Assembly: GCA_014804005.1 (NCBI GenBank)
Contig: JAAVAP010000013.1
Location: 386,302-450,301 of the forward strand
Reading direction: 5' to 3'
From: Treponema sp.
GTDB lineage: Bacteria; Spirochaetota; Spirochaetia; Treponematales; Treponemataceae
DNA length: 64,000 nt
Positions within the stretch are counted from its first letter, which is position 1. The number at the start of each line of letters is the position of its first letter. The translations under genes were made by a program, and so were the position numbers. Positions 15,371-18,876 of this stretch are shown piece after piece. Below the pieces are notes generated by a model, which saw only the letters and a list, made by a program, of their open reading frames with translations, was not told where the DNA came from and ran no database searches.

Positions 15371-15925
15371 TTACTCGACGGGAAGTTCAGTAAAACGAAT
15401 GTCTTTTATGCCAACTGCCTCTATCATGTTCTTGGCGGTCTCGGTGCAAACTACATCCAGATTTGTTTCTTTTATAACGAATATGTTGTTTGCAGTATCA
15501 ATGAGAGACAATTTTGCTTTTGACAGAACCAACTTGTCAATTAAACAAACCCTCTCTCCATCTACTCCTGTGCTATACTCCGACTTTTCAAAATTGAACG
15601 CCTCGTACTCGGGGAAAATCATCGAGTAATAGATGTCCCAAATCTGCTCCTTTTCCTTGTAGTACAGCTGAGTCGGAAGTGCCTCGTAGTCCTTGTTCAG
15701 TTGCTTTATTATGTCAAAAAGCCTTTGCGATACCAGTTTTGAATCCGCCAACGGGTAGTCCCCAGGATTGTATTTGTTTTTGACGTACATCGTTACGGGC
15801 AGCTTCAATTCTCTGTTTTCCCATAGATTCATCCATAAAAATTCTCCTTCCCATTCGCCAAAGAATCTAGGCTCGCAAAATTTTGTCGTTTCAACTCCAC
15901 AAGGTTTAAAAGAATAATATTTCAT
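15371..15925 (-). CDS. Hypothetical protein, possible polymorphic-toxin immunity protein
   Basis: This is a soluble protein of 184 residues that I cannot name with certainty. Features such as YPLADSKLVSQRLFDII in the middle and TAKNMIEAVGIKDIRFTELP at the C-terminus resemble the Imm11/DUF1629-type immunity proteins, but only loosely. It lies 8 bp after a YezG-like gene on the same strand, in an AT-rich stretch unlike the flanking cca and TPP kinase genes. The context supports an immunity role; the sequence alone does not prove it. Confidence 0.55.
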   Translation of the reverse strand: MKYYSFKPCGVETTKFCEPRFFGEWEGEFLWMNLWENRELKLPVTMYVKNKYNPGDYPLADSKLVSQRLFDIIKQLNKDYEALPTQLYYKEKEQIWDIYYSMIFPEYEAFNFEKSEYSTGVDGERVCLIDKLVLSKAKLSLIDTANNIFVIKETNLDVVCTETAKNMIEAVGIKDIRFTELPVE

Positions 15926-15933
15926 TTTGCCAA

Positions 15934-16404
15934 TTATGCGCTTGCGCCTTCCAATTTTGCCTTTTCTTCTTCAAACCATGCTTCCTGATTGTCAAATACT
16001 GAAACATCATCCGAAGTCCGATTTTCATATTTGTATTCCGCGTTGAACTTTTTTGTCTTCGGCTCGTATGTCAGGCGCATTTCTGTTGGCATAGGCTGAT
16101 TGTATTTGTCGCAGATTTTATGAATTTTGCAGACATCTTCATTCAAGATATCTAAAACTTGTCTCTGACAGTCAATTGAAACATCAAACTGAGTTTTTAA
16201 GCCTACATCGTTAAGTTTGCTGCATTTATATACATTCTTATTGAAACAATAGAAATATTGCGCCAATATCATCCCTTCATTTGCCGCGTAAACATATATC
16301 TTGTCGGCAAGTCCTTTTGAATACTCGTTGCAGATGTCCACCATGTCCGCCTGCAATGCGGAAAATTCATCTTCAAATGTTTTCTTCTTAAAAATTCCAA
16401 ACAT
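15934..16404 (-). CDS. YezG/DUF600-like immunity protein (second copy)
   Basis: This 156-residue protein starts at an ATG (MFGIFKKKTFEDEF) that directly follows the stop of the upstream YezG gene (TAGCATG). The DUF600-type pattern is visible as a helical N-terminus (LQADMVDICNEYSKG), a beta sheet (DKIYVYAANEGMILAQYFY), and the C-terminal MPTEMRLTYEPKTKKFNAEY followed by an acidic tail. Members neutralise secreted nuclease toxins in the YeeF-YezG systems. It is paralogous in design to the next gene rather than a duplicate of it. Confidence 0.7.
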   Translation of the reverse strand: MFGIFKKKTFEDEFSALQADMVDICNEYSKGLADKIYVYAANEGMILAQYFYCFNKNVYKCSKLNDVGLKTQFDVSIDCQRQVLDILNEDVCKIHKICDKYNQPMPTEMRLTYEPKTKKFNAEYKYENRTSDDVSVFDNQEAWFEEEKAKLEGASA

Positions 16405-16405
16405 G

Positions 16406-16747
16406 CTATGCCTTGTCCCATTCGTCCTGAAGTGCCTGATCCCATATAAACTCCATGTCGAAATGACCATTCTTCTCCAGCGTATAGACGGCGCGATTCC
16501 ACTTGTGTTCTGGATACATTGCTTCTTGAAGTTCAAAAATATTCTCACCTAAATCTTCATCTTGATTATCATTTATTAATCCAAATGCATTCTTATGCCC
16601 ATCCTTAAAAAAATAATAGGCATTTGTAGATAACATTTTCCCGAGAGATGATTCAATCTCGACAACAGCTTTTTCCCATTTGTCATCAATGGAATTGCAA
16701 ATCATATCTGCAATTAATTTGTACACATCCATCATAATGTTTACCAT
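16406..16747 (-). CDS. YezG-family immunity protein
   Basis: The 113-residue product has the YezG/DUF600 layout: YKLIADMICNSIDDKWEKAVVEIE, then NAYYFFKDGHKNAFGLIND, and a C-terminal KWNRAVYTLEKNGHFDMEFIWD. In Bacillus, YezG is the antitoxin of the YeeF nuclease. The ATG at 16747 overlaps the stop of the toxin-tail reading frame (TGATG), the arrangement expected of a toxin-immunity pair. Alternative ATGs at 16735 and 16732 exist. Confidence 0.72.
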   Translation of the reverse strand: MVNIMMDVYKLIADMICNSIDDKWEKAVVEIESSLGKMLSTNAYYFFKDGHKNAFGLINDNQDEDLGENIFELQEAMYPEHKWNRAVYTLEKNGHFDMEFIWDQALQDEWDKA

Positions 16748-16944
16748 CAATTATTATAGAATTTAAAATCTTTTATTTGTTTATTTCCATTTTTATCTAT
16801 CGTAGTACTTCTTACATCAAACCTTTTCGGTCTTTTACTATTTCCATAATAAACTATTTCTATGTTAATGTCAACTTTGTTCCCTCGGTCAGCGCATTGA
16901 CGCTCCGCCAAAGCCCTGCGTTTTTGTACTTTATTTTTCAACAA
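16747..16944 (-). pseudogene. C-terminal remnant of a nuclease toxin (YeeF-like)
   Basis: Only about 60 codons remain. The tail KVDINIEIVYYGNSKRPKRF followed by DVRSTTIDKNGNKQIKDFKF and a final YNN resembles the C-terminus of DNA/RNA non-specific endonuclease toxins of the LXG/YeeF type. The active-site region is missing. The reading frame runs into the left arm of a hairpin element at 16935, so the body of the toxin gene appears to have been replaced or deleted there. The adjacent YezG gene supports the identification. Confidence 0.55.
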
Positions 16945-16978: not shown

Positions 16979-17053
16979 CGCGATTGGTGCAGCGAAGCGT
17001 TTTCGCAACAAGCGCGTAGCGCGAAGTTTCCAGCGAAAATCGCAATAAATACG

Positions 17054-17074
17054 CGAGTTTCTGCAAGAAACTCG
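17054..17074. repeat. 9-bp hairpin CGAGTTTCT-GCA-AGAAACTCG
   Basis: This is a perfect inverted repeat with a 3-nt loop. Related CGAGTTT / AAACTCG stems recur at 59135-59173 and 61809-61837, so it belongs to the dispersed hairpin family. Confidence 0.8.
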
Positions 17075-17076
17075 GC

Positions 17077-17115
17077 ATTAACATTAGCGACGCAATTTCA
17101 GTCGCTGATGTTAAT
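17077..17115. repeat. 15-bp hairpin (ATTAACATTAGCGAC / GTCGCTGATGTTAAT)
   Basis: Fourteen Watson-Crick pairs and one G-T pair enclose a 9-nt loop containing ATTTCA. Similar CGAC-N-ATTTCAGCG cores are seen in the 61.9 kb chain. There is no T-run, so it is not a standard terminator. Confidence 0.85.
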
Positions 17116-17150
17116 TGCTGATTTTCGGGCGATTTATCCTGTATTTATGG

Positions 17151-17430
17151 AAGATGTTCTTTCACGTATGTGTTAGAAGGTCTTTCATTGTAATGTTAGA
17201 TGTTCTTTCACTTAAGTGTCAGAGGTTCTTTCATTTAAATGTTAGAAGGTCTTTAATGCAAATTTTGGAGTGTCTTTAACATAAGTTTTGGAACGTCTTC
17301 AATTGCTATTAAAGGGTGTCTTCAACGTACGTTTTGGAACGTCTTTAATTGCTATTAAAGGGAGTCTTTAACGTACGTTTTAGATGGTCTTCAACCGCAA
17401 TTAAAGTGTGTCTTAAATGTATAATGTTGG
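17151..17430. repeat. Array of twelve 23-bp units with variable palindromic cores
   Basis: TCTT blocks start at 17158, 17181, 17204, 17227, 17250, 17273, 17296, 17319, 17342, 17365, 17388 and 17411, exactly 23 bp apart. Each unit has the form TCTTY-core-WWRGA. The 10-bp cores differ but most are self-complementary or nearly so: CACTTAAGTG, CATTTAAATG, AACGTACGTT (twice), CATTGTAATG, CACGTATGTG and AATTGCTATT (twice), with weaker ones at both ends. The period is not a multiple of three, so it is not coding. There is no spacer/repeat distinction of the CRISPR type. Confidence 0.85.
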
Positions 17431-17472
17431 AAGATGTGACAAATTATGGAAAAATGTGCCACATGGAGAACT

Positions 17473-17583
17473 TTTCCGCACTTTTTTCAAATTTATTTCC
17501 GCAAATACGTGCGTGTATTTCGGGAAATATGCGTGCGTATTTCCGCAAATATTTTTACGTATTTCCGCAAATAAATTTAGCGC
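17473..17583. repeat. Array of about five 22-bp units (TTTCCGC-AAATA)
   Basis: TTT of the motif TTTCCGC or TTTCGGG occurs at 17473, 17496, 17518, 17540 and 17562, a step of 23 and then 22 bp. Between motifs, AAATAC-GTGCGT-GTATTT and similar inverted repeats form. Short overlapping reading frames cross it on both strands, but none has a start signal or a recognisable product. From 17584 to 17739 I see nothing specific. Confidence 0.75.
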
Positions 17584-17739
17584 GGGCTTGAAAAAAGCGG
17601 CGTTTTGTCTGTGGCAGGGACTAAAGCGTGTCCGCATCGGGGACATTCTCACGCACTAGGCGCGCGGACATGGGCATGTCACAGCCGCGGACGCGGAAGG
17701 ATTTGGGCGCGTCCGCCGAAAACGTCGCCCGCATGCCCC

Positions 17740-18834
17740 TCACTCCTTGCCAGCTTTCCTTTTCTTTGCAATCACAAGAATAATTGGGAGCAAGACAATC
17801 ATGAGGATGATTCCGAAGCCCACTTGAATAAATGGAAAGACAAAATCGTCATTCTCCTCTTTCTTATTCATCTTTACAGCGCGATTCACTTTGCTTTCGT
17901 CTTTTGTTTCGACTAGATTTTGAAGTTTGAGTTCTTCTTCCTCCGCAGGTTCTGCTTGTTCCGTTGCTAGCGCGACCGCCGGTTTTGTCATTATGCCGTT
18001 TTCGTCCTCGTAGTCGCAGCTGCCGTCCGCGTGGCGCGGAAAGGTGATACGAGAAAAATCGACCTCATGGTTTACATAAAAACTTCGAATTTCTGTCAAC
18101 ATGCTTTGATCAGCTCTTATCAATTCAAAGATCAATGTTCCGTCTTTGTATACAAATAAATAGTCGCCGTCAATTTGAAATTTCAAATACAGACTTTTCT
18201 TCCTTGGCTCATTTATGCCTTCAAAAATTGGCGAGTAGCCATTTCTAGGTGTCAATAAAATCAATTTTAGGTAAAATCCGTCGTTTTCTTTCTTTATATT
18301 TTCAATAAAAAAAGGTGTCCGCGAATACAATATGCAAGAATCATAGTCTTCTAAATAAATATTGCTGTAAAATTTTATGGAGAAAGGCTTGTAATAGTCA
18401 GAAAAATTCTCATCTCCATCCGCATATTTTTCATTCCAAAAATTCTTTAAATATGGCTCATTCAAAAACAAATTGTCGGTGGAATCATTCAGAATGTCTT
18501 TTAAGTAATAGTTCATCGTATATACGGAGCCGATTATGTCTTCGGGAAGGCTGTCGGAAGCGTTTTTTACTGTTATGTCCCTCATATAAACAAATTTATC
18601 CAGCTCCGAAAGATACAAAGTCGCATCCTTTCCTTCCCTGTCTTCAAAATAATGACAAATTTGGTCGTTTTCTGAATTCACTGTCAATACAGTGCCTTGA
18701 CTGACTTTTCCCATGTCTTCGCCCATATTGTCTACAAAGTTTGTGTCTTTATTGACTACGACTTCAAAAGTCTCTGAAAACATGACTTGAGAAAAAATGG
18801 AAAGCAATATAACTATGCCTATTGTCTTTTTCAT
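17740..18834 (-). CDS. Secreted, C-terminally membrane-anchored protein of unknown function
   Basis: The product is about 364 residues from ATG 18834, which has GGAGGT 9 nt upstream. It carries a signal peptide (KKTIGIVILLSIFSQVMFS), a long beta-rich extracytoplasmic domain without recognisable motifs, a Glu/Lys-rich linker near residue 315, and a C-terminal TM helix (FIQVGFGIILMIVLLPIILV) followed by a basic tail. The anchor and orientation suggest a periplasmic domain tethered to the inner membrane. It is AT-rich relative to core genes and sits in the accessory island. Confidence 0.7.
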   Translation of the reverse strand: MKKTIGIVILLSIFSQVMFSETFEVVVNKDTNFVDNMGEDMGKVSQGTVLTVNSENDQICHYFEDREGKDATLYLSELDKFVYMRDITVKNASDSLPEDIIGSVYTMNYYLKDILNDSTDNLFLNEPYLKNFWNEKYADGDENFSDYYKPFSIKFYSNIYLEDYDSCILYSRTPFFIENIKKENDGFYLKLILLTPRNGYSPIFEGINEPRKKSLYLKFQIDGDYLFVYKDGTLIFELIRADQSMLTEIRSFYVNHEVDFSRITFPRHADGSCDYEDENGIMTKPAVALATEQAEPAEEEELKLQNLVETKDESKVNRAVKMNKKEENDDFVFPFIQVGFGIILMIVLLPIILVIAKKRKAGKE

Positions 18835-18876
18835 AATCAATATACCTCCTCATGGTCAAATGGGGGTTCACAAATC

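Follow-up and report, generated by a model that had tools for sequence, protein, structure and literature searches.

The window, a stretch of 64,000 nucleotides of Treponema sp. DNA, carries an array of twelve dyad-symmetric 23-bp units (positions 17158 to 17433, + strand) which is an orphan copy of a unit family found upstream of HU-like genes on contigs C16 and C13 of the same genome. Arrays of this class keep a fixed pitch and palindromic units, accompany genes for HU-HIG/DUF4469 proteins and turn over rapidly in sequence. On balance, we give about an even chance to the view that the window array is a DNA-level scaffold of this class, on which HU-like dimers would assemble at a fixed pitch of 22 to 23 bp by recognizing shape.

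Unit structure and dyad symmetry

Unit starts follow one another at 23-bp steps from 17158 to 17411 (n = 12, zero insertions or deletions), with a consensus near TCTTTAACGTACGTTAAAGA followed by NNN. The left part of the array consists of TCTTTCA..TGTTAGA units and the right part of ..GTAC..TTGGA and ..TTGC..AAAGG units in alternation, so that a 46-bp rhythm is superimposed on the 23-bp one; the twelfth unit is degenerate. A pattern of the letters common to two adjacent units matched ten times, always inside the array, and never in 100 shuffles of the window. An earlier sequence-only reading was right to count twelve 23-bp units free of insertions and deletions. The exact register that it described holds throughout the window's array, but not in the corresponding array of a second genome of the genus (G150), which includes a unit of 24 bp. 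The array does not have the identical repeats and unrelated spacers of a CRISPR, as spacers are absent and the units are contiguous and diverged. No Rfam 15 family scored above its gathering score over the array, and a BLAST search with the array found no match among phages or plasmids.

Of the 60 positions scored in the ten-base cores (5 pairs per unit, 12 units), 49 were paired. Base shuffles of the cores gave a mean of 19.7 and at most 33 paired positions, and exchange of right arms among units a mean of 33.0 and at most 46 (20,000 trials); none of these trials reached 49, the control on which the dyad count had been made to depend. Cores are thus mostly palindromic, as had been proposed, although only 4 of the 12 are perfect. 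Across all six of the genome's arrays with such units (64 units), 251 of 320 pairs were matched, against 189 ± 7 after arm exchange. Two-sided changes were counted in 71 cells, where shuffles gave 41.6 ± 5.2, in agreement with the suspected compensation between the two arms. Covariation was seen at pairs 6-15, 8-13, 9-12 and 10-11, and its score fell when the register was slid by ±1 to 3. The proposed second tier of matching outer arms (TCT/RGA) is likewise present, at 91 to 98% paired when T.G is counted. A dyad centred on the spacer rather than on the core was considered and rejected, since its variable positions showed no covariation.

Related copies and surroundings of the array

BLAST and a two-unit covariance model located five further arrays of the window's unit family in the genome (on C15, C18, C13, C16 and C1), and all six arrays step at 23 bp; the same-genus genomes G101 and G150 also carry the family. 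The C16 and C13 arrays lie directly upstream of a HU-HIG/DUF4469 gene, of which the C1 copy retains a fragment. The duplicated segment shared by C16 and C13 begins with the array and ends 3 bp beyond the stop codon. A second unit class (CCCTAAACGGACGTTTTGGGGTG), also at a 23-bp pitch, occurs in G151, G077, G092 and G173. At the G150 locus that corresponds to the window the flanking genes are 89 to 97% identical to those of the window, yet the array differs, with at least 16 units, several of them identical; arrays therefore turn over quickly.

The window copy has both the exact 22/23-bp pitch and the dyad-symmetric units of the class, and no DUF4469 gene adjoins it (no PF14734 match in the 64-kb window). 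Beside it lies a second, unrelated tandem palindrome array with a period of 22 (TATTTCCGCAAATACGTGCG; 17483 to 17598), which also adjoins the C15 and C18 copies. Beyond this, a gene without a confident Pfam match (17740 to 18840, − strand) has its 3′ end facing the array, and a gene oriented likewise toward the array precedes the C15 and C18 copies. On the opposite flank of the array, the nearest open frame (16747 to 16944, − strand) is codirectional with that gene and occurs once in the genome. Between this frame and the array is a stretch with two hairpins (17026 to 17119, + strand), common to the window and the C15 copy, with a sub-threshold match to the TD-2 RNA motif (Rfam RF03162; 31.8 bits against a gathering score of 48.7). 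TD-2 is a hairpin element of Treponema that adjoins some array loci, but it lies outside the 23-bp arrays themselves. Two genes further off (15371 to 16548) resemble immunity proteins (Imm11 and YezG-like), with Pfam matches near the cut-offs.

Arrays of fixed pitch at DUF4469 loci

In this genome, all 11 PF14734 (DUF4469) loci have an array with a period of 22 or 23 bp. The scan for periods of 15 to 60 covered 40 DUF4469 loci of further genomes in the genus, in most cases along with some 4 kb of flank at either end; these loci are phylogenetically non-independent, many of the assemblies are fragmented and the named records are metagenome-assembled. A 22/23-bp array (or one of double period) was present at 26 loci, and the other 14 had no array at threshold. 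Arrays of period 22, 23 or double lay upstream at 25 of the 40 loci, and downstream arrays comprised one clear 23-bp case and one weak segment of period 45. The only other upstream periods were a 24 and a 27, both at 23-bp arrays. Distances from array to gene were 58 to 690 bp or about 1.2 to 1.6 kb, apart from three 22-bp upstream arrays some 3 kb away, and arrays at about 1.2 to 1.6 kb were often upstream of an operon of XRE, M78 (ImmA/IrrE-like) and HU genes. Over the scanned loci, a set not free of short-repeat tracts and related loci, dyad symmetry was supported at a Fisher P of about 2 × 10−48.

The arrays extend beyond the genus. In a complete genome from a sister genus of the same family (G341), 8 of 9 loci have an array just after the stop codon, and in G282, from another family, 22/23-bp arrays occur at several loci. 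It is also worth noting that several genes of G341 (L260, L261 and similar) have short tandem repeats of 7 or 8 bp upstream, near promoter-like sequence, which suggests phase-variable expression of these HU-DUF4469 genes.

Outside the window, 791 kb of this genome contained seven 23-bp segments, four of them at DUF4469 loci; of the remainder, one (C18) belongs to the window's unit family, one (C13, 158 kb) to the unit family of the DUF4469 locus at 90 kb on C18, and one is borderline. No 23-bp array was found in 400 kb of two genomes that lack DUF4469. This genome's HU gene of canonical appearance (C17:51173) has no array. Arrays of 22 bp also occur without a DUF4469 neighbor, which makes the association with these genes strongest at the 23-bp pitch. 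Other repeats of the genome include many apparently noncoding arrays of period 41 to 42 with two alternating palindromes (L153:8253-8601, L145:6465-6791, L162:4425-4788 and others). Repeats of 23 residues (period 69) also run through numerous genes that resemble leucine-rich-repeat genes (e.g., L168:9737-10790), and these have no relation to the 23-bp arrays.

Units are mostly unrelated between loci. Homologous loci of other species carry GACAGTCCAGTGTACGTGGTGCT (G099), CAACACCTGACGACGGCGGTCGT (G011) or the second unit class (G173 and G151). Where proteins were above 90% identical the units matched, whereas for many protein pairs at 70 to 85% identity (some loci being compared by the DUF4469 part alone) they were no more alike than shuffles, and paralogues within G341 have almost identical HU arms and unrelated arrays. 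Across 41 non-redundant arrays no convincing universal motif emerged, with CATAAG recurring in a few. Since proteins that are 70 to 85% identical often carry unrelated arrays, it is the geometry that is conserved and not the sequence. The earlier argument that decay alone would not keep both spacing and dyads is supported, because dozens of loci share the pitch although their sequences are unrelated.

The proposed partner, an HU-HIG/DUF4469 protein

The putative partner protein encoded on C16 and C13 combines a HU-type domain with a DUF4469 Ig-like domain (PF18291/PF14848 and PF14734), and we take such proteins to be the HU superfamily's HU-HIG clade. The proposals that Burroughs et al. reportedly made for this clade in 2017 concern partition and mobile elements rather than palindrome arrays next to the genes. 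Searched against solved structures, a family profile matched 4fmr and HU-alpha, and the predicted HU-type fold is supported by both Pfam and this search; an AlphaFold prediction for one HU-DUF4469 protein (mean pLDDT of 57 over the HU part) was too poor for a structure search. The gene family is carried by named Treponema metagenome-assembled records, in line with the genus assumed in the sequence-only reading. It was not found in viral contigs or phages, and among plasmids a single case was found, pTS1 of Treponema saccharophilum, where a 23-bp array (score 0.62 to 0.64, at threshold) stands before genes in the order helix-turn-helix, hypothetical, DUF4469. Operons of XRE, M78 and HU-DUF4469 genes were seen at L126, L175, L182, L183, L188 and L196, and the L126 peptidase matches the CapP and RmrA models in PADLOC. 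In a control that sought M78 genes without a HU neighbor, the clear M78 matches of this genome fell within HU operons.

Proposed function and alternatives

We infer that HU-type homodimers would recognize each dyad mainly by its shape, through bendability or a tendency to form hairpins or cruciforms, and not by its base sequence. Neighboring dimers would touch, perhaps via the Ig-like domain, and so fix the 23-bp pitch, and the resulting nucleoprotein patch may tune the transcription unit next to it, in many cases its own operon. HU proteins are not sequence-specific in their binding of double-stranded DNA and favor junctions and DNA that is distorted (PMC5683647); such properties would permit recognition by shape. 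Escherichia coli HU covers 9 to 10 bp per dimer (PMC5683647), which means that some other factor must set a 23-bp pitch. The window array may have lost its own gene, or never had one, and would then be either a target in trans of the C16 protein or a relic. A wider generalization, to which we hold only tentatively, is that the arrays are shape-coded cis elements: HU-HIG/DUF4469 proteins may read the geometry of a 22- to 23-bp lattice while its sequences are rapidly replaced, with orphan arrays serving as sites in trans. The arrays could instead have the XRE regulator, or some third protein, as their partner.

HU and IHF proteins are known from junction or inverted-repeat DNA, and in Porphyromonas gingivalis the gene for HU PG0121 flanks an operon with a 77-bp inverted repeat at its 5′ end (PMC3969353). 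Those systems share with ours a HU-type protein and a preference for distorted DNA, which is predicted for ours, but no fixed-pitch tandem array is described in them (PMC5683647, PMC3969353), and the proteins here have the extra DUF4469 Ig-like domain.

The strongest competitor, which we nevertheless regard as unlikely, is an array of sequence-specific operators for a conventional dimeric repressor (XRE where present), each regulator having a palindrome of its own and cooperativity fixing the 23-bp spacing. Cooperativity fixes the spacing of the lambda operators, and lambda oR and ImmR/ImmA are operator arrays of dimeric phage-type repressors. Palindromes at fixed spacing suit dimers and private sequences suit private regulators; at many loci the palindromes, about 23 to 24 bp apart, lie beside XRE and M78 genes, many of them upstream of XRE, M78 and HU-DUF4469 operons, and pTS1 has its array before a helix-turn-helix gene. 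However, at L190, L191, L208 and L212 the array directly precedes the HU gene with no XRE gene between, and in the sister genus it comes after the HU gene. Among the flanking genes examined in the window there is no XRE regulator gene, as there is at other array loci, and the neighbor common to the loci is the HU gene. These arrays also differ from phage-type operators in having up to 15 or more units and in changing sequence while the HU-type protein stays similar.

Somewhat less probable again is a functionless by-product of mutation, in which tandem duplication and template switching at quasi-palindromes make and homogenize the arrays. Rapid turnover of units, as in G150, is consistent with this, and cores such as CATTGTAATG and CATTACAGTG look flipped between copies; correction of palindromes could also mimic compensatory change. 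Such a process leaves unexplained both the period of 22 to 23 with the near absence of others and the placement of the arrays beside HU-DUF4469 genes.

We think it improbable that the arrays act as a multi-hairpin RNA (leader, 3′ UTR or small RNA). Folding of the array as RNA is far superior to that of shuffles, with z = −6.3 on one strand and −5.6 on the other, and sister-genus arrays directly follow the stop codon. Yet the two strands fold about equally well, as would those of any DNA palindrome, and on the gene-sense strand G-U cells (275) were not in excess of A-C cells (327). Furthermore, upstream arrays precede sites that by eye look like promoters (e.g., L126 and L132), which would leave the arrays outside the operon transcript. 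Function at the level of DNA is thus more likely than function as RNA.

A mobile REP/BIME-like palindrome spread by a transposase is the least credible alternative: the arrays, like REP/BIME elements (PMC2817692), are intergenic, palindromic, regularly spaced and dispersed, with alternating unit types, but no Y1/REP-type transposase (PF01797) was found in the genome (92% complete) whereas six control genomes gave matches, the window's unit family is limited to six arrays and other loci have unrelated units private to each, no unit has a GTAG-type tag (as compared with the REPs listed in PMC2817692), and the fixed 22- to 23-bp pitch and HU-type partner gene set the arrays apart.

Of the three functions that the sequence-only reading had offered, dimer-binding sites are the best fit, as a prediction, and a multi-hairpin RNA is disfavored; for a recombination substrate no evidence was found, though modules of array and gene have been duplicated as units.

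Implications

Our searches of the literature on DUF4469, HU-HIG and palindromic tandem repeats of Treponema found nothing relevant, and no description of a pairing between HU-DUF4469 genes and palindrome arrays was found in the open-access literature and databases searched. HU-HIG/DUF4469 proteins form a large, uncharacterized branch of the HU superfamily, and the private arrays beside most of their genes provide a concrete candidate for their DNA partner. If it is geometry rather than sequence that evolution has kept in these arrays, they would follow a rule that is unusual among bacterial regulatory sites.
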